Shown here piece after piece: positions 5,013 through 11,441 of a stretch of DNA of 64,000 nucleotides (its first letter is position 1; every line of letters starts with the position of its first letter). Both the position numbers and the translations under genes were made by a program. Origin of the DNA: Pseudomonas cremoris (lineage in GTDB: Bacteria > Pseudomonadota > Gammaproteobacteria > Pseudomonadales > Pseudomonadaceae); NCBI RefSeq assembly GCF_014230465.1, contig NZ_JAAXCY010000019.1:27420-91419 (forward strand). Reading direction: 5' to 3'. Under the pieces are notes generated by a model. It made no database searches, was not told the DNA's origin, and saw only the letters and a list, made by a program, of their open reading frames with translations.

Positions 5013-5726
5013 TCACACCACGTCCACACCCACGTGGATCGCGTCATGCCGCCAGAATTCCAGGTCGCAGTCGATCAAGCGTTGATGCTGGTCATAGTTG
5101 ACCCGGGCAATGCGCAAGCCCGGGCTGCCCGACGACACGCGCAACGCGGCGGCGGCCTCTACCGGCAATGATGTCGGCACAATTTCAAAGCGCACACGCC
5201 CGTAGTGCAAGTCGTACTTGCGGGCATACAGCTCGGTCATCGACTGGTTCAGGTCGCAGTCCAGAATCCCCGGGAAATACTGCGGGTTCAGGTAATGCTC
5301 TACATACAGCACCAAGCGCCCATCAATGCGCCGGCCCCGGCAGATCTGGATCACGCTGGACAATGCCGGCAGTTGCAACCACGCACACACCGCTGCCGAC
5401 GCCGGTTGCAGCCGCGCCGAGATCACTTCGGTGGACGGCACTCGCCCCTGGTCACTGACCATCGCGTGAAAGTGGCTCCGCTGCATCAAGTTGTAAGCCA
5501 GCCGTGGCGGCGAGACAAACCAGCCGCGGCGCTCTTCTCGGTAAATCTGCCCTTGGGCTTCCAGTTGTAACAAGGCTTCCCGCACGGTAATTCGAGTGGT
5601 ACCAAACAACTCGCTGAGCTTGCGCTCGGCGGGCAGTTTGCTTGCAGGCGGCAACAGGCCGTGGTCGATCTGCTCTTGCAGCGCCAGGCCAATGGATGTC
5701 ACCGCCTTGATTGCCTCATCACGCAT
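5013..5726 (-). CDS. GntR-family (HutC/UTRA) transcriptional regulator
   Basis: This 237-residue regulator has an N-terminal winged-helix GntR domain (about residues 5-70, KLPAERKLSELFGTTRITVREAL) and a C-terminal UTRA ligand-binding domain (about 90-235). It is divergent from the ABC/hydrolase cluster that starts at 6078 and is its likely local regulator. Two CTAGACCA-bearing sites, resembling the dre operators of DasR-type regulators, lie just upstream of its own start and near the +1 of the divergent promoter. A Pho box on its own strand sits about 100 bp upstream. ATG 5726 is chosen over the TTG at 5729. Its 3' end is 4 bp from the convergent metal operon. Confidence 0.88.
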   Translation of the reverse strand: MRDEAIKAVTSIGLALQEQIDHGLLPPASKLPAERKLSELFGTTRITVREALLQLEAQGQIYREERRGWFVSPPRLAYNLMQRSHFHAMVSDQGRVPSTEVISARLQPASAAVCAWLQLPALSSVIQICRGRRIDGRLVLYVEHYLNPQYFPGILDCDLNQSMTELYARKYDLHYGRVRFEIVPTSLPVEAAAALRVSSGSPGLRIARVNYDQHQRLIDCDLEFWRHDAIHVGVDVV

Positions 5727-5739
5727 CAATGTTACCTAT

Positions 5740-5753
5740 CTGGACTAGACCAG
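5740..5753. promoter_or_regulatory. dre-like GntR operator, site 1
   Basis: The sequence CTGGACTAGACCAG is a near-perfect palindrome centred on CTAG. It closely matches the operator type bound by HutC-subfamily GntR regulators (DasR consensus ACTGGTCTAGACCACT). It lies 14-27 bp upstream of the GntR start codon, where binding would block transcription of the regulator gene, consistent with autoregulation. Binding is inferred, not shown. Confidence 0.65.
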
Positions 5754-5806
5754 CACTGTTCAGGTGCATAAACCGCTCCGTAAACGGGCTACTACTGCTG
5801 CTTGCC

Positions 5807-5840
5807 AGCCTAGGCATTGCAGATGACCGACAGATGACAG
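5807..5840 (-). promoter_or_regulatory. Pho box and -10 for the GntR gene
   Basis: On the minus strand, 5840-5823 reads CTGTCAT-CTGT-CGGTCAT. That is two Pho half-sites separated by 4 bp, one perfect and one with a single mismatch to CTGTCAT. Ten bp further on is TAGGCT (5812-5807), a plausible -10, which is the spacing expected when PhoB replaces the -35 contact. The GntR gene would then be induced by phosphate starvation. Confidence 0.6.
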
Positions 5841-5960
5841 TCCGTGTCGCCCGCCGCAAGCACACCCTGCAATACATCGGCCAAGTCCAACCATTACGGG
5901 CACTTGAGCATGGTCTACGCTCACTCTGCGACGTGCGACATCCGCGATTTAAAAACGACA

Positions 5961-5994
5961 TCGACATGAAACTGTCATCCATCGAGCCTAGATT
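5961..5994 (+). promoter_or_regulatory. Pho box and -10 for the ABC/hydrolase operon
   Basis: Positions 5961-5978 read TCGACAT-GAAA-CTGTCAT: the second half-site is perfect and the first matches at 4 of 7. TAGATT at 5989-5994 follows after exactly 10 bp and can serve as the -10. Transcription would start near 6001, about 75 bp before the substrate-binding protein gene. PhoB activation of the operon is the natural reading. Confidence 0.6.
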
Positions 5995-6006
5995 GGCTCA
6001 GGTATT

Positions 6007-6022
6007 GCTGACCTAGACCAAC
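6007..6022. promoter_or_regulatory. dre-like GntR operator, site 2
   Basis: GCTGACCTAGACCAAC shares CTAGACCA and flanking bases with site 1 at 5740-5753 and sits just downstream of the predicted transcription start of the operon. A repressor here would block elongation or initiation from the Pho promoter. A weaker relative, GCCTAGATTGG, overlaps the -10 at about 5986-5996. Confidence 0.55.
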
Positions 6023-6077
6023 ACCACCGCAATCGTTCATAAAAACGCAGCGTTGATAACGCCCAAAGGAGCTTCGG

Positions 6078-7154
6078 ATGAAACAGCTTTTCCTGGCATC
6101 ACTGTTAGGCTCGACCATTGCCATGTGCACCGCCGCCATGGCCGCTGATACCGATCTAAAAACCCTGGAAGCTGCCGCAAAGGCAGAAGGCGCAGTGAAC
6201 AGCGTCGGCATGCCCGATGACTGGGCCAACTGGAAAGGCACCTGGGAAGACCTGGCCAAGACCTATGGTCTCAAGCACATCGACACCGACATGAGCTCGG
6301 CTCAGGAAATCGCCAAGTTCAAAGCCGAAAAAGACAACGCCAGCGCCGATATCGGCGACGTCGGCGCGGCATTCGGTCCGATTGCGGTGAAGCAAGAAGT
6401 GACCCAGCCTTACAAACCGTCCACCTGGGCCCAGGTGCCGGATTGGGCAAAAGACAAAGACGGTCACTGGGCATTGGCCTACACCGGCACCATCGCGTTT
6501 ATCGTCAACAAGAAGCTGCTGCACGGCTCCGATGTGCCCACCAGTTGGGCTGACCTGCAAAAAGGCAAATACAAAGTCTCCATCGGTGACGTAAGCACCG
6601 CAGCCCAGGCAGCCAACGGTGTGCTGGCCGCAGCCATCGCCAACAAGGGCGATGAGAAAAACATTGCCCCGGGCCTGCAGTTCTTCACCAAAATCGCCCA
6701 GCAAGGCCGTCTGTCGCTGTCCAACCCGACCATCGCCACCATGGAAAAAGGCGAAGTCGAAGTGGGCGTGGTCTGGGACTTCAACGGCTTGAGCTACAAA
6801 GCCAAGATGGCCAACCCGGATGACTACGTGGTGCTGATCCCATCGGACGGCTCGGTGAAATCCGGCTACACCACCATTATCAACAAATACGCCAAGCACC
6901 CGAACGCCGCCAAGCTGACCCGCGAATACATCTTCAGCGATGCCGGCCAACTCAACCTGGCCAAGGGTAATGCGCGCCCCATCCGTGCTGAAACCGACCT
7001 GAAACTGCCGGCCGATATCGCCAAGAACCTGATCCCGGGCGAGCAGTACACCAAGGCCAACCCGCAGCCGATCAAGGATGCCGATGCCTGGGAAGCAACT
7101 TCCAAGAAGCTGCCGCAGTTGTGGAACGAGCAGGTCATTGTAGAAATGAAGTAA
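6078..7154 (+). CDS. ABC transporter periplasmic substrate-binding protein (polyamine/iron/phosphonate-type fold)
   Basis: This 358-residue extracellular solute-binding protein has a clear signal peptide (MKQLFLASLLG...TAAMA) and a strong AAAGGAG ribosome-binding site. It belongs to the broad type-2 family that carries ferric iron, thiamine, polyamines and 2-aminoethylphosphonate. Features such as DIGDVGAAFG, YTGTIAFIVNKK and VGVVWDFNG are typical of that fold. It heads a cluster with a hydrolase, two permeases, an ATPase and a HAD phosphatase, under a predicted Pho promoter. The ligand is therefore likely an organophosphate or phosphonate, but no residue I can see proves it. Confidence 0.85.
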   Translation: MKQLFLASLLGSTIAMCTAAMAADTDLKTLEAAAKAEGAVNSVGMPDDWANWKGTWEDLAKTYGLKHIDTDMSSAQEIAKFKAEKDNASADIGDVGAAFGPIAVKQEVTQPYKPSTWAQVPDWAKDKDGHWALAYTGTIAFIVNKKLLHGSDVPTSWADLQKGKYKVSIGDVSTAAQAANGVLAAAIANKGDEKNIAPGLQFFTKIAQQGRLSLSNPTIATMEKGEVEVGVVWDFNGLSYKAKMANPDDYVVLIPSDGSVKSGYTTIINKYAKHPNAAKLTREYIFSDAGQLNLAKGNARPIRAETDLKLPADIAKNLIPGEQYTKANPQPIKDADAWEATSKKLPQLWNEQVIVEMK

Positions 7155-7191
7155 GGCTGGAACCCACATTGGAGCTCCACTGGAGATCCAA

Positions 7192-7281
7192 TGTGGGAGC
7201 GGGCTTGCTCGCGAAAGCGGTGTACCAGGCAGTGCATCAGTTAGCTGGACCACCGCTTTCGCGAGCAAGCCCGCTCCCACA
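7192..7281. repeat. REP inverted pair between binding protein and hydrolase genes
   Basis: Two copies of the 'tgtgggagcgggcttgctcg' REP element face each other: tgtgggagcgggcttgctcgc at the left and its reverse complement at the right, with about 45 bp between the cores. The transcript would fold into a long hairpin. It separates the abundant binding-protein cistron from the downstream operon genes and could set their relative expression. Confidence 0.9.
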
Positions 7282-7345
7282 GTTTTGACCCCACTCATCC
7301 AATAAATTCGAGCCAAAACCAATCTGTTGCGGAGCTCCAGCCCCC

Positions 7346-8152
7346 ATGAAGCACAATGTCATCCTTGTCGTGCTCGACGGCCTGAACTTCGAGGTTGCCC
7401 GACACGCCATGGGGCACTTGCAGGCCTATGTCGGCGCAGGACGCGCAGCCCTCTACACGCTGGAATGTGAACTGCCCGCCCTGTCCCGTCCGCTGTATGA
7501 ATGCATCCTCACCGGTGTGCCGCCGATCCTGAGCGGCATCGTGCACAACCATGTCTCGCGCCTGTCCAACCAGCGCAGCATTTTCCATTACGCCACCGAC
7601 GCAGGCCTTACCACAGCGGCGGCGGCTTACCACTGGGTGAGCGAGTTGTATAACCGCACGCCCTTTCTCGCCGCACGCGATCGCCATACCGACGACAAGA
7701 CGCTGGCGATCCAGCACGGGCATTTCTACTGGAATGACCACTACCCCGATTCCCACCTGTTCGCCGACGCCGAAAGCCTGCGCCTCAAACACGCGCCGAA
7801 CTTTCTGGTGGTGCACCCGATGAACATCGACGACGCCGGCCACAAGCACGGCCTCGACACCCCGCAGTACCGCAACAGTGCACGCTCGGCCGACATCATC
7901 CTGGCCGACTACCTGCAAGGCTGGCTCGACGCTGGCTACCAGGTGCTGGTGACCGCCGACCACGGCATGAACAACGACCGCTCCCACAACGGGCTGCTGC
8001 CGGAAGAGCGCGAAGTCCCGCTGTTCGTCCTGGGCGATGCCTTCAGCCTGGATGCCAAGGCCACCCCCAAACAGACCGAGCTGTGCGGCACCGTCTGTGA
8101 ACTGCTGGGCGTGCCCCACGACAAACCTGTATGCCGGGAGCTGTTGAAATGA
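7346..8152 (+). CDS. Alkaline-phosphatase-superfamily hydrolase (phosphodiesterase/phosphonoacetate-hydrolase-like)
   Basis: This 268-residue protein carries the metal and nucleophile motifs of the phosphodiesterase branch of the alkaline phosphatase superfamily. These are VVLDGLN (Asp11), the Thr nucleophile in CILTGVPP (about residue 55), HPMNIDDAGHKHG (Asp and His), TADHGMN (Asp-His) and DRSHNG (His). It has no signal peptide, so it acts in the cytoplasm on an imported substrate. Its short length and motif set resemble phosphonoacetate hydrolase and nucleotide pyrophosphatases. The neighbouring ABC importer and HAD phosphatase support a phosphodiester or phosphonate substrate. It overlaps the next gene by 4 bp. 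Confidence 0.82.
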   Translation: MKHNVILVVLDGLNFEVARHAMGHLQAYVGAGRAALYTLECELPALSRPLYECILTGVPPILSGIVHNHVSRLSNQRSIFHYATDAGLTTAAAAYHWVSELYNRTPFLAARDRHTDDKTLAIQHGHFYWNDHYPDSHLFADAESLRLKHAPNFLVVHPMNIDDAGHKHGLDTPQYRNSARSADIILADYLQGWLDAGYQVLVTADHGMNNDRSHNGLLPEEREVPLFVLGDAFSLDAKATPKQTELCGTVCELLGVPHDKPVCRELLK

Positions 8153-8985
8153 CCCGTGGTAAATGGCTTGCGCTGCTGTGTCTGGTGCCGTTTGCGTTGT
8201 TCTTTATCGTGTTCGAAATTGCCCCGCTGGTGTGGGTGCTGATCAACAGCCTGCAAACCGAAGAAGCCGGCTGGGGCCTGGAAAACTTCACGCGGATCTT
8301 CAGCTCGAAGTTCTACCTGCAAGCCATCCAGTTCAGCCTGGAGATCAGCTTCTATTCCAGCGTCTTCGGCATCATCATCGCCACGCTGGGCAGCTATTCC
8401 CTGCGCCGGGTGGATTCGCCACTGCGCAATTTCGTCACCGCGTTTGCCAACATGACCAGCAATTTTGCCGGCGTACCCCTGGCGTTCGCGTTCATCATCC
8501 TGCTGGGCTTCAACGGCAGCATCACCCTGATGCTCAAGCAGGCGGGGATCATCCAGGACTTCAACCTGTACTCCAAAACCGGGCTGATCATCCTCTATAC
8601 CTATTTCCAGATTCCCCTCGGCGTGCTGCTGCTCTACCCCGCCTTTGACGCGCTGCGCGAGGACTGGCGCGAGTCGGCCGCCTTGCTCGGCGCCAACGGC
8701 TGGCAGTTCTGGCGGCATATCGGCTTGCCGGTGCTCACGCCAGCGCTGCTGGGTACCTTCGTGATCCTGCTGGCCAATGCATTGGGCGCCTACGCCACGG
8801 TGTATGCACTGACTACCGGTAACTTCAACGTGCTGCCGATCCGCATCGCGGGCCTGGTCTCCGGCGATGTGTCACTCGACCCGAACATGGCCAGCGCCCT
8901 GGCCGTGGTGCTGGTGGCACTGATGACGGTGGTCACCGTAGTCCATCAACTGCTGCTCAAGAGGAGCTACCATGTCTCGCGCTGA
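8149..8985 (+). CDS. ABC transporter permease (first subunit)
   Basis: This 278-residue protein has six predicted membrane helices and the binding-protein-dependent permease signature EDWRESAALLGANGWQFWRHI near residues 170-190, which contacts the ATPase. It belongs to the spermidine/iron/phosphonate permease family (PotB-like). The ATG overlaps the hydrolase stop (ATGA) with GGGAG upstream; the in-frame extension before it lies inside the hydrolase gene. It pairs with the permease encoded at 8972-9772. Confidence 0.88.
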   Translation: MTRGKWLALLCLVPFALFFIVFEIAPLVWVLINSLQTEEAGWGLENFTRIFSSKFYLQAIQFSLEISFYSSVFGIIIATLGSYSLRRVDSPLRNFVTAFANMTSNFAGVPLAFAFIILLGFNGSITLMLKQAGIIQDFNLYSKTGLIILYTYFQIPLGVLLLYPAFDALREDWRESAALLGANGWQFWRHIGLPVLTPALLGTFVILLANALGAYATVYALTTGNFNVLPIRIAGLVSGDVSLDPNMASALAVVLVALMTVVTVVHQLLLKRSYHVSR

Positions 8986-9772
8986 AGCCGGCCCAGCCTC
9001 GCTCTACCATCGGGTAGTGGTGTGGGTGTTGTTTGCGATCCTGGTACTGCCTTTGGTGGGCACCTTTGTCTACTCGATTGCCAGCAGTTGGTCAGCGACC
9101 ATCCTGCCTGCAGGGTTTACCCTGAAGTGGTACGTGCAGTTGTGGAGCGACCCGCGCTTCTTGATGGCCTTCGGGCAGTCGTTGCTGGTGTGCGTGGGCG
9201 CGTTGATCCTGTCGGTGGTGCTGATCTTGCCGCTGTTGTTCGTGGTGCATTACCACTTCCCCAAGCTCGATGCGCTGATGAACATCCTGATCCTGCTGCC
9301 CTTTGCGGTGCCGCCGGTGGTGTCTTCGGTGGGCCTGCTGCAGCTCTACGGCTCCGGGCCGATGGCGATGGTGGGCACGCCGTGGATTCTGATCGGTTGC
9401 TACTTCACCGTGGCGCTGCCGTTCATGTACCGGGCGATCACCAACAACCTGCAAGCCATCAACCTGCGCGACCTGATGGACGCCTCCCAACTGCTCGGCG
9501 CCAGCACCTGGCAGGCGGCGATCCTGGTGGTGCTGCCAAACCTGCGCAAAGGCCTGATGGTTGCGCTGCTGCTGTCGTTCTCGTTCCTGTTCGGTGAATT
9601 CGTCTTTGCCAACATCCTCGTGGGCACCCGCTACGAAACCCTGCAGGTGTACCTCAACAACATGCGTAACAGCAGTGGCCACTTCACCAGTGCCGTCGTG
9701 ATTTCCTACTTCTTCTTTGTGCTGGTGCTGACCTGGGCCGCCAATATCTTGAACAAGGACAAAAGCCAATGA
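8972..9772 (+). CDS. ABC transporter permease (second subunit)
   Basis: This 266-residue PotC-like permease has about six hydrophobic segments and the EAA loop LMDASQLLGASTWQAAILVV. The gene overlaps the preceding permease by 14 bp and the following ATPase gene by 4 bp, so the three transport cistrons are tightly coupled. It would form the heterodimeric channel with the preceding permease. Confidence 0.88.
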   Translation: MSRAEAGPASLYHRVVVWVLFAILVLPLVGTFVYSIASSWSATILPAGFTLKWYVQLWSDPRFLMAFGQSLLVCVGALILSVVLILPLLFVVHYHFPKLDALMNILILLPFAVPPVVSSVGLLQLYGSGPMAMVGTPWILIGCYFTVALPFMYRAITNNLQAINLRDLMDASQLLGASTWQAAILVVLPNLRKGLMVALLLSFSFLFGEFVFANILVGTRYETLQVYLNNMRNSSGHFTSAVVISYFFFVLVLTWAANILNKDKSQ

Positions 9773-10758
9773 GCTTCGTCAGCGTCCAACACCTGCAAAA
9801 AGGCTACGCCGGCACCCCGGTGTTCAGCGATATCAACTGCGAGATCGCCAAAGGCGAGTTCGTCACCCTGCTCGGCCCCTCCGGCTGCGGCAAGTCGACC
9901 TTGCTGCGCTGTATCGCCGGTCTCACCTCGGTGGACAGTGGGAAAATTCTGCTGGATGGCCAAGACATCGTCCCGCTGAGCCCGCAGAAACGTAACATCG
10001 GCATGGTGTTCCAGAGCTACGCCCTGTTCCCCAACATGACCGTGGAACAGAACGTCGCGTTCGGCCTGCGCATGCAGAAGGTCAACGCCGACGACAGCCA
10101 CAAGCGCGTGCAGGAAGTGCTGCAACTGGTGGAACTCAAGGACCTGGCCAGCCGTTACCCGCACCAGATGTCTGGCGGCCAATGCCAGCGCGTAGCCCTC
10201 GCCCGCTCCCTGGTCACCCGCCCACGCCTGCTGTTGCTGGATGAACCGTTGTCGGCGCTGGATGCGCGGATTCGCAAGCACCTGCGCGAACAGATCCGCC
10301 AGATCCAGCGCGAACTGGGGCTGACCACGATCTTCGTGACCCATGACCAGGAAGAAGCGCTGACCATGTCCGACCGCATCTTCCTGATGAACCAGGGCAA
10401 GATCGTGCAGAGCGGCGACGCCGAGACCCTCTACACCGCGCCGGTGGACGTGTTTGCCGCCGGTTTTATCGGCAACTACAACCTGCTGGACGCCGACAAG
10501 GCCACTCAACTGCTGCAACGCCCGATCAGCAGCCGCATCGCCATTCGCCCAGAAGCCATTGAGTTGAGCCGCCACGGTGAACTCGACGCCCTGGTGCGCA
10601 GCCACAGCTTGCTGGGCAACGTGATTCGCTACCGCATCGAAGCGCGCGGCGTGGAGTTGGTAGTGGACGTGCTCAACCGCTCGGCCGACGATCTGTACCC
10701 GGAGGGGCAACGCCTGGCACTTTCCATCGACCCAAGCGCCCTGTGTGAAGTAGCCTGA
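9769..10758 (+). CDS. ABC transporter ATP-binding protein (PotA-like)
   Basis: This 329-residue ATPase has Walker A GPSGCGKST, Q-loop FQSYALFPNM, signature MSGGQCQR, Walker B LLLLDEPLSALD and switch His in VTHDQEEA. A C-terminal regulatory TOBE-type domain follows after about residue 235. The signature has MSGGQ in place of LSGGQ, which is tolerated in the family. It energises the importer formed by the two permeases just upstream. Confidence 0.9.
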   Translation: MSFVSVQHLQKGYAGTPVFSDINCEIAKGEFVTLLGPSGCGKSTLLRCIAGLTSVDSGKILLDGQDIVPLSPQKRNIGMVFQSYALFPNMTVEQNVAFGLRMQKVNADDSHKRVQEVLQLVELKDLASRYPHQMSGGQCQRVALARSLVTRPRLLLLDEPLSALDARIRKHLREQIRQIQRELGLTTIFVTHDQEEALTMSDRIFLMNQGKIVQSGDAETLYTAPVDVFAAGFIGNYNLLDADKATQLLQRPISSRIAIRPEAIELSRHGELDALVRSHSLLGNVIRYRIEARGVELVVDVLNRSADDLYPEGQRLALSIDPSALCEVA

Positions 10759-10787
10759 TGCAACGTTTTATTGAGAGAGCATGACCG

Positions 10788-11441
10788 ATGGCATTGGTAA
10801 TTTTTGATTTGGACGACACCCTGATCCACGGCGACTGCGCCACCTTGTGGAGCGAGCAGATGGGCCGCCTGGGCTGGGTCGACGCTGAGTCGTTCATGCG
10901 CAAGAACCATGAACTGATGCACGCCTACAGCCAGGGCCAACTGAAGATGGAAGACTTCATGGACTTCAGCCTGGAACCGATGATCGGCCGTACACCGGCG
11001 GAAATCGAACACCTGGTGGAGCCGTGGGTCGAGGACGTGATCGAGCCGTTGATCTACAGCGACGCCACCAAGACCATCGCGCGTCACCGGGCCAATGGCG
11101 ACCGGATCCTGGTGATCTCGGCGTCCGGCACGCATTTGGTCAAGCCGATCGCGGCACGCATCGGAATTGATGAAGTGTTGGGGATCGAGCTGGAAGTCAG
11201 CCATGGCGTGTACAGCGGGCGTACCGTCGGCGTACTGACCTACCGCGAAGGCAAGATCACGCGCTTGCTGGAGTGGTTGGAGCAGGAAGGCGAGACGTTG
11301 GAGGGGGCGTACTTCTATTCGGATTCGCGTAATGATCTGCCGTTGCTGTTGAAGGTGGATCATCCGCAGGTGGTGAACCCTGATCCGGTCTTACGGGCGC
11401 ATGCGCAACAAGCCGGCTGGCCGATCCACCACTGGATCTGA
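10788..11441 (+). CDS. HAD-IB family phosphatase
   Basis: This 217-residue cytoplasmic hydrolase has the HAD nucleophile motif VIFDLDDTL (Asp7, Asp9), motif II Ser in VISASGTH, a conserved Lys around EGKITRLL, and motif IV SDSRNDLPLL. The layout, with a helical cap between motifs I and II, matches the SerB/CicA-like HAD-IB subfamily that removes phosphate from small metabolites. It lies 29 bp after the ABC ATPase and probably ends the operon. Together with the preceding hydrolase it could release phosphate stepwise from the imported compound. Confidence 0.83.
   Translation: MALVIFDLDDTLIHGDCATLWSEQMGRLGWVDAESFMRKNHELMHAYSQGQLKMEDFMDFSLEPMIGRTPAEIEHLVEPWVEDVIEPLIYSDATKTIARHRANGDRILVISASGTHLVKPIAARIGIDEVLGIELEVSHGVYSGRTVGVLTYREGKITRLLEWLEQEGETLEGAYFYSDSRNDLPLLLKVDHPQVVNPDPVLRAHAQQAGWPIHHWI

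Follow-up and report, generated by a model that had tools for sequence, protein, structure and literature searches.

The window analysed here, a stretch of 64,000 nucleotides whose nearest named relatives belong to the fluorescens group of Pseudomonas, contains a 352 bp intergenic region that separates a GntR/UTRA regulator gene on the minus strand from a set of uptake genes on the plus strand (6078-11441). The features of the locus are listed in Table 1. The regulator has both a GntR winged helix and a UTRA domain, which places it among the GntR/HutC (UTRA) transcription factors. Its best NCBIfam match was TIGR03337 (PhnR) at 292.1 bits, narrowly below the cut-off of 296.75, and because the score is just under the cut-off we refer to the protein only as PhnR-like. 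The start codon kept across relatives is the ATG at 5726 rather than the TTG at 5729. The regulator gene was divergent to the substrate-binding protein (SBP) gene in 110/110 loci and in 99 of 100 additional sampled genomes (L111-L210); at the one exception, L184, no regulator was found upstream of the SBP gene.

The first of the uptake genes encodes an SBP of the AepS/PhnD3 type, as judged by gene order. A full-length match with at least 73% identity was present in 143 of 149 sampled genomes of the genus, and split or partial matches were present in four more. In the nearest genome sampled (G001, C1:6436045-6437117) the match is split into two overlapping frames, reflecting a frameshift or an assembly error. 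The solved periplasmic binding protein PDB 5t1p matches residues 11-358 of the SBP (E 6e-135) and could help to predict its substrate. The 2-aminoethylphosphonate (2AEP) models PhnS, PhnS2, PhnT2, PhnU and PhnV matched the transporter subunits, all below their curated cut-offs, and the phosphodiesterase-like product scored far under the cut-off of TIGR02335 (phosphonoacetate hydrolase). From the spacing of the genes, the HAD-IB phosphatase gene is possibly the last of the operon. A REP/REPIN-like hairpin with 37-nt arms that are 95% complementary lies between the SBP and phosphodiesterase genes (7192-7281); it might reduce expression of the downstream genes relative to that of the SBP. Rfam matches at 7163-7285 were to miRNA families, fell below the gathering scores and lay on a hairpin, and they were rejected. 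Almost all of the Pseudomonas genomes sampled have the locus, although little is known about how it is controlled.

Table 1. Genes and predicted control sites at the locus (window coordinates).
Feature	Position	Strand	Evidence or remark
GntR/UTRA (HutC-type) regulator, PhnR-like	5013..5726	-	PF00392 59.0 bits and PF07702 128.8 bits, both above cut-off
Operator O1, CTGGACTAGACCAG	5740..5753		In regulator 5' leader; 12-bp core with 1 mismatch to TGGTCTAGACCA
-10-like hexamer TAGGCT, regulator	5807..5812	-	10 bp after Pho box; conserved
Pho box, regulator promoter, CTGTCAT-CTGT-CGGTCAT	5823..5840	-	PhoB matrix rank 2/127,966
Possible extra Pho-like site, CTGCAATACATCGGCCAA	5867..5884	+	PhoB matrix rank 6 in window
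Element O3, TGGTCTACGCT	5911..5921	+	Operator half-site TGGTCTA + CGCT; alignment of 118 regions
Pho box, operon promoter, TCGACAT-GAAA-CTGTCAT	5961..5978	+	PhoB matrix rank 5/127,966
-10-like hexamer TAGATT, operon promoter	5989..5994	+	10 bp after Pho box
Operator O2, TGACCTAGACCA	6009..6020		Just downstream of putative start point; 2 mismatches to TGGTCTAGACCA
ABC transporter substrate-binding protein (SBP_bac_6; AepS/PhnD3 type by gene order)	6078..7154	+	PF13343
Type I phosphodiesterase/nucleotide pyrophosphatase-like protein	7346..8152	+	PF01663
ABC permease	8131..8985	+	PF00528
ABC permease, nearest NCBIfam model PhnV	8972..9772	+	PF00528; TIGR03255 below cut-off
ABC ATPase, nearest NCBIfam model PhnT2	9769..10758	+	PF00005; TIGR03265 382.7 bits vs cut-off 457.7
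HAD-IB phosphatase	10788..11441	+	TIGR01490 over cut-off

The initial annotation had described a Pho box on each strand of the intergenic region, each followed 10 bp on by a -10-like hexamer, together with two CTAGACCA-containing palindromes, one on each side of the divergon. The palindromes were present as described, and the letters, coordinates and spacing of both boxes (5840-5823 with TAGGCT, 5961-5978 with TAGATT) were as given. Both boxes have the layout of Pho regulon promoters, a 7-4-7 direct repeat followed by 10 bp and a -10 hexamer. A scan of the window with the textbook Pho consensus CTGTCATNNNNCTGTCAT at up to three mismatches gave four matches against 4.1 in shuffles. The minus box has one mismatch to this consensus and the plus box has three, so that the plus box is no better than chance by that measure. 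TGGTCTAGACCA is the consensus of dre-like UTRA operators, and 12-bp sites of this type are predicted on both sides of the divergon (O1 and O2). Four matches with up to two mismatches were found in the window, compared to a shuffle mean of 1.4, and four were reached in 7 of 100 shuffles. Such consensus scans are weak alone; what carries the argument is a PhoB matrix derived from other promoters, together with conservation.

The PhoB matrix was derived from the phoX (11 sites), phoB (15 + 15 overlapping sites) and pst (5 sites) promoters of relatives, with the groups weighted equally. The sites were chosen by patterns written after the promoters had been viewed, and the two phoB boxes have a common half-site. 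The matrix took in 11 of 15 phoX loci (L301 was off-pattern and no box was seen in L303-L305), 15 of 16 phoB loci and five of six high-scoring pstC loci. All 11 phoX boxes used had the same layout of 7-4-7 box, 10 bp and TANGGT. Scoring with a Pseudomonas PhoB matrix, as the initial annotation had proposed, placed the two boxes second and fifth among the 127,966 positions in the window, and first and second among the 315 positions that have TANNNT at 10 bp. Four of the window's 25 best matrix sites lie within these 352 bp (Poisson P ~1.3e-5). The possible extra Pho-like site between the boxes is kept in close relatives and poorly kept genus-wide.

Conservation was assessed on 210 Pseudomonas intergenic regions, comprising the window, 110 loci and 99 of the 100 further sampled genomes of the genus. 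Non-conservation in orthologous regions had been named as grounds for abandoning the reading; all four sites were conserved. O1 was kept (at least 12/14 to CTGGACTAGTCCAG) in 209 regions and O2 (at least 11/12) in 210/210. The regulator Pho box with 10 bp and TANNN(T/A) was found in 207 regions and the operon Pho box pattern in 210, with TANNNT at 10 bp in 185. As these patterns were written after viewing the alignment, the figures of 210/210 and 207/210 are descriptive and the matrix ranking is the test. Matrix scores of at least 5 were obtained for the operon box in 209/210 regions and for the regulator box in 201/210, the other nine regulator-side boxes scoring below 5. The operon box of L001 is intact and scored -12 only because a ~260-bp insertion had shifted it beyond the search range. 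This insert, in the SBP leader of Pseudomonas sp. P7548, lies just downstream of O2 and has the inverted-repeat ends of a MITE-like element. Of 238 loci, 210 have a distance of 48 bp from the start of the operon box to O2, and the remaining 28 have one of 49-50 bp.

Parts of this arrangement were also seen beyond the genus. At L261, from another family of the order, each side carries an operator as well as a Pho box followed by its hexamer. At L262, from a further family of the order, an operator, Pho box and hexamer lie on the regulator side, and the plus-strand box is strong (16.4) and lacks a hexamer at 10 bp. The regulators of these two loci showed 47-48% identity. No operator was found at a third order-level relative (L263), and none of these sites was found upstream of the second-copy regulator genes L264 and L265 (66-68% identity).

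A third element, O3, which was absent from the initial annotation, showed conservation comparable to that of O1 and O2 in an alignment of 118 regions. It lies 50 bp before the operon Pho box and represents only half an operator, its CGCT part being off-palindrome. The match was 11/11 in 204 of the 210 regions, 10/11 in three, 9/11 in two and 6/11 in one. A search of 16 genomes with ATGGTCTACGCT gave 13 matches in 12 of the 16, and 11 of the 13 were at this locus; two O3-like matches lie elsewhere (L327, L328). In other genera, O3 was exact in g2 (2/2), g4 (2/2), g12 (5/5) and g9 (3/6), and the remaining three g9 loci carry TGGTCTAGGCT at this position. Four of five g15 loci have TGAGCTAGGCT (three) or TGCGCTAGGCT (one) at 109-111 bp from O2. 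O3 was missing at all six loci of g6 and at the single locus of g19. The variants TGGTCTAGGCT and TGAGCTAGGCT keep a similar spacing and resemble the CTAG operator core more closely, which speaks for the same protein at O3. O3 is most likely an auxiliary site for the PhnR-like protein.

The distances between the sites vary among relatives, and spacing changes were counted by parsimony for 238 loci on a tree of a single gene, the regulator (240 genes). Changes of 4-35 bp were counted and were called out of phase when more than 2.5 bp off a multiple of 10.5; those above 35 bp (52, 42 and 47 bp, and 40 and 54 bp in the control) were left out. From O3 to the operon Pho box, 0/12 changes were out of phase and all were of 9-12 bp. 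One of 15 changes was out of phase from the regulator box to O3, three of 25 from box to box and two of 23 from O1 to O3. The control interval, O2 to the SBP start, had 16/33 changes in phase and 17/33 out of phase. When the four phased intervals were compared with this control by Fisher tests, the P values were 0.0008 to 0.0025; they are rough because the intervals are nested, the tree is of a single gene and the larger changes (above 35 bp) were omitted. Phasing was absent between O1 and the regulator Pho box (7/12 changes out of phase), and O1 is therefore read as a road-block. The second control, regulator start to O1, had changes of 1-2 bp only and was uninformative. The four intervals change mostly in whole helical turns, as for phased operators, and the in-phase steps between O3 and the Pho boxes suggest a helically phased complex.

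The P. aeruginosa ortholog of the regulator is presumably PA3249. PA3249 has a published HT-SELEX motif and has been assayed by EMSA at the amrZ promoter (PMC8041468). PA3249, PA3250, PA3251 and PA3254 are absent from the main text of a phosphate-limitation proteome paper (PMC9769906). Expression data are available for P. putida BIRD-1, in which PPUBIRD1_3890-3895 is probably the same locus, as judged by family names and by gene and locus-tag order; there too the GntR gene adjoins the SBP gene, the ATPase gene lies four genes on and the locus is phosphate-responsive (PMC5082522). In low phosphate, the GntR protein PPUBIRD1_3890 rose by 3.57 log2 and the ATPase PPUBIRD1_3895 by 4.72 log2, and both were undetected in the phoBR mutant (PMC5082522). 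The binding protein PPUBIRD1_3891 (PhnD3) rose by 2.69 log2 in the wild type and by 2.31 log2 in the phoBR mutant; its exoproteome level was reduced in the BIRD-1 phoBR mutant and raised in the low-phosphate exoproteomes of SBW25 and BIRD-1 (PMC5082522). PhnD3 was renamed AepS and called constitutive in BIRD-1, with AepSTU assigned to auxiliary 2AEP uptake (PMC8316502). The passages available from these descriptions differ from the present locus in giving a constitutive SBP and no Pho boxes, operators or third site. The published regulation thus looks contradictory, with a PhoBR-dependent regulator and ATPase and a nearly constitutive binding protein.

Collectively, these results support dual control by PhoB and a UTRA-type regulator well. 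We consider it probable that the region is a divergent promoter at which PhoB acts both ways, the PhnR-like protein represses until its ligand is present, the circuit forms an incoherent feed-forward loop and O3 is auxiliary. In phosphate starvation, PhoB would bind the two outward-facing Pho boxes and help RNA polymerase to start on the repressor gene and on the transporter operon. The PhnR-like GntR/UTRA protein, acting as a putative repressor, would block both by binding to the start of the operon at O2 and to its own leader at O1. The trigger for its release may be a phosphonate or a similar organophosphorus compound, with 2-aminoethylphosphonate and its relatives as possible candidates; hunger would then prime the system and the ligand would open it. 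Since PhoB would also raise the repressor, the circuit would be an incoherent feed-forward loop with negative autoregulation. O3 would sit on a fixed helix face relative to the complex of PhoB and RNA polymerase and make a phased contact, possibly with looping. This site map offers a reason for the contradictory regulation, since PhoB would drive both the operon and its repressor; the repressor is also missing in the phoBR mutant, which may explain why the binding protein persists there. The element O3 and its phasing also yield a specific prediction of the way in which a UTRA repressor and PhoB share one promoter. Going further, the site arrangement would allow the UTRA repressor and two back-to-back PhoB complexes to form one phased assembly in which O3, lying between the boxes as half an operator, bridges to O2 (and O1), a reading that we put forward tentatively and hold to be somewhat short of an even chance. 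If true, the repressor would clamp a PhoB-primed promoter and the ligand would open both directions at once, and Pho control in at least five sampled genera (g1, g2, g4, g9, g12) would incorporate repression by looping or clamping through a GntR protein of the HutC type.

The initial annotation had interpreted the region as an AND gate with PhoB activating both directions. The PhoBR dependence of the regulator and the ATPase at the BIRD-1 locus supports the claim for PhoB, and the presence on each side of a predicted PhoB site and a UTRA-type operator supports the two inputs. The AND gate is weakened by the Pho box of the repressor itself and by the binding protein, which rises partly without PhoBR, and any model must also accommodate O3. 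In its strict form, in which the repressor leaves only with ligand and O3 has no role, the gate would account for two Pho boxes and two operators in fixed geometry and for a regulator and ATPase that depend on PhoBR (PMC5082522). It is nevertheless improbable, because O3 is conserved like O1 and O2 and is phased, SBP induction is partly PhoBR-independent (PMC5082522) and such a gate has no need for PhoB to raise the repressor. Chance matching of the Pho boxes, with phosphate acting indirectly, could be argued from the textbook consensus, which by itself is at chance level in the window, but we give this hardly any credence given the matrix ranks, the genus-wide conservation with a fixed 10-bp spacing to the hexamer and the proteome of the BIRD-1 phoBR mutant (PMC5082522).

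Two further alternatives concern O3 and its spacing. Another protein could bind O3, such as an activator of the class-I type located ahead of the promoter that depends on PhoB; the CGCT half does not fit the operator, and a predicted centre near -85 together with the helical steps would suit an upstream activator. A global regulator is made unlikely by the fact that ATGGTCTACGCT is nearly private to this locus, and the variants in other genera (TGGTCTAGGCT and TGAGCTAGGCT) come closer to the CTAG operator core, so that we consider a different protein unlikely while giving it appreciable weight. The spacing steps of ~11 bp could instead reflect mutational bias, through gain and loss of the 11-bp Pho repeat, rather than selection for helical phase, given that Pho half-sites repeat every 11 bp and that some regions have shifted extra half-sites. 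This account is rather doubtful, as the O3-O2 distance, which is independent of the Pho repeat chosen, shows the same steps, and changes in the O2-SBP start interval are out of phase in 17/33 cases (4-35 bp).

Phosphonate genes controlled jointly by PhoB and by a substrate regulator are already known; the three-site phased layout looks like a new form of such control, and none of the passages surveyed in open-licence papers described the Pho boxes, the operators or O3. M. smegmatis phnDCE-phnF has a divergent phosphonate-type transporter and UTRA repressor with two operators and a phosphate two-component system. It differs in its transporter class and in having RegX3 in place of PhoB, and it is not known to have a third phased site. 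In Salmonella phnSTU-phnWX, a PhnR-type regulator stands next to an ABC transporter for phosphonates that is controlled by PhoBR, whereas here the PhnR cut-off was narrowly missed, phnWX lies outside the operon and three sites are present in the divergon. The Salmonella genes with PhnR were described by Jiang et al. 1995, as cited in PMC9311074. A tested two-signal promoter is provided by BIRD-1 aepXVW and phnWX, where PhoBR and 2AEP are both needed when 2AEP is the phosphorus source; the sensor there is the LysR-type AepR and not a UTRA repressor (PMC9311074). Double operators between regulator and targets are common in HutC divergons, 60 of which were studied (PMC4494728), and the native dre sites of NagR are asymmetric, with two guanines in one half only (PMC4333415), as in O2. 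Compared to these, the present locus has an extra half-operator element and phasing with Pho boxes. Atu1419, a tetrameric GntR protein of the VanR group, has been seen to loop the DNA of a divergon between two palindromes separated by 190 bp (PMC7797058). It is likewise a repressor of the GntR superfamily but belongs to another subfamily, and looping at the present locus is conjectural.

Genome matches to CTGGNCTAGNCCA outside the locus were found in G047 (L326), G065, G042 (2681666), G122 (986707, 2930449), G011 and G015, and a further CTTGCTCTGGTCTATTCCA match was found in G008. The CTGGNCTAGNCCA matches in G018, G100, G122 and G060 (L322-L325) form the stems of terminator-like hairpins followed by T's, and the CTTGCTCTGGTCTATTCCA matches in G058 and G016 (L360, L361) lie inside a coding region; both sets were rejected. 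In part of the family, the combination of Pho box, hexamer and UTRA operator is found ahead of pcrP (PA2803 family) and Phn-HD genes as well, at L329, a pcrP promoter with a CTGGNCTAGNCCA match in G042 at 3010861, and at L345. An operator lay beside the Pho box at one of 30 Phn-HD loci (L345), and the other 29 examined had none there.

In P. aeruginosa, pcrP has been reported to be regulated by phosphate and bound by PhoB (PMC12632274). At 18 of 30 pcrP loci (L380-L409), the upstream 400 bp contained an operator matching at least 9/12; the one at L383 (9/12 at -313) was discounted, leaving 17/30 with at least 10/12. The operator started 33 bp after the start of the box, directly after the hexamer, in 16 of these 17, and by the PhoB matrix the boxes in those 16 were weak in 13 (0.9-3.7) and scored 7.4-13.5 in three. 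The remaining 13 loci (L380-L392) have a Pho box scoring 7.9-15.0 and no nearby operator. Because the pair of Pho box and operator recurs at pcrP and Phn-HD operons, these genes may belong to a small organophosphorus regulon. A regulator paralog with 40-43% identity adjoins pcrP in g9 genomes, G157, G307 and G323 among them.
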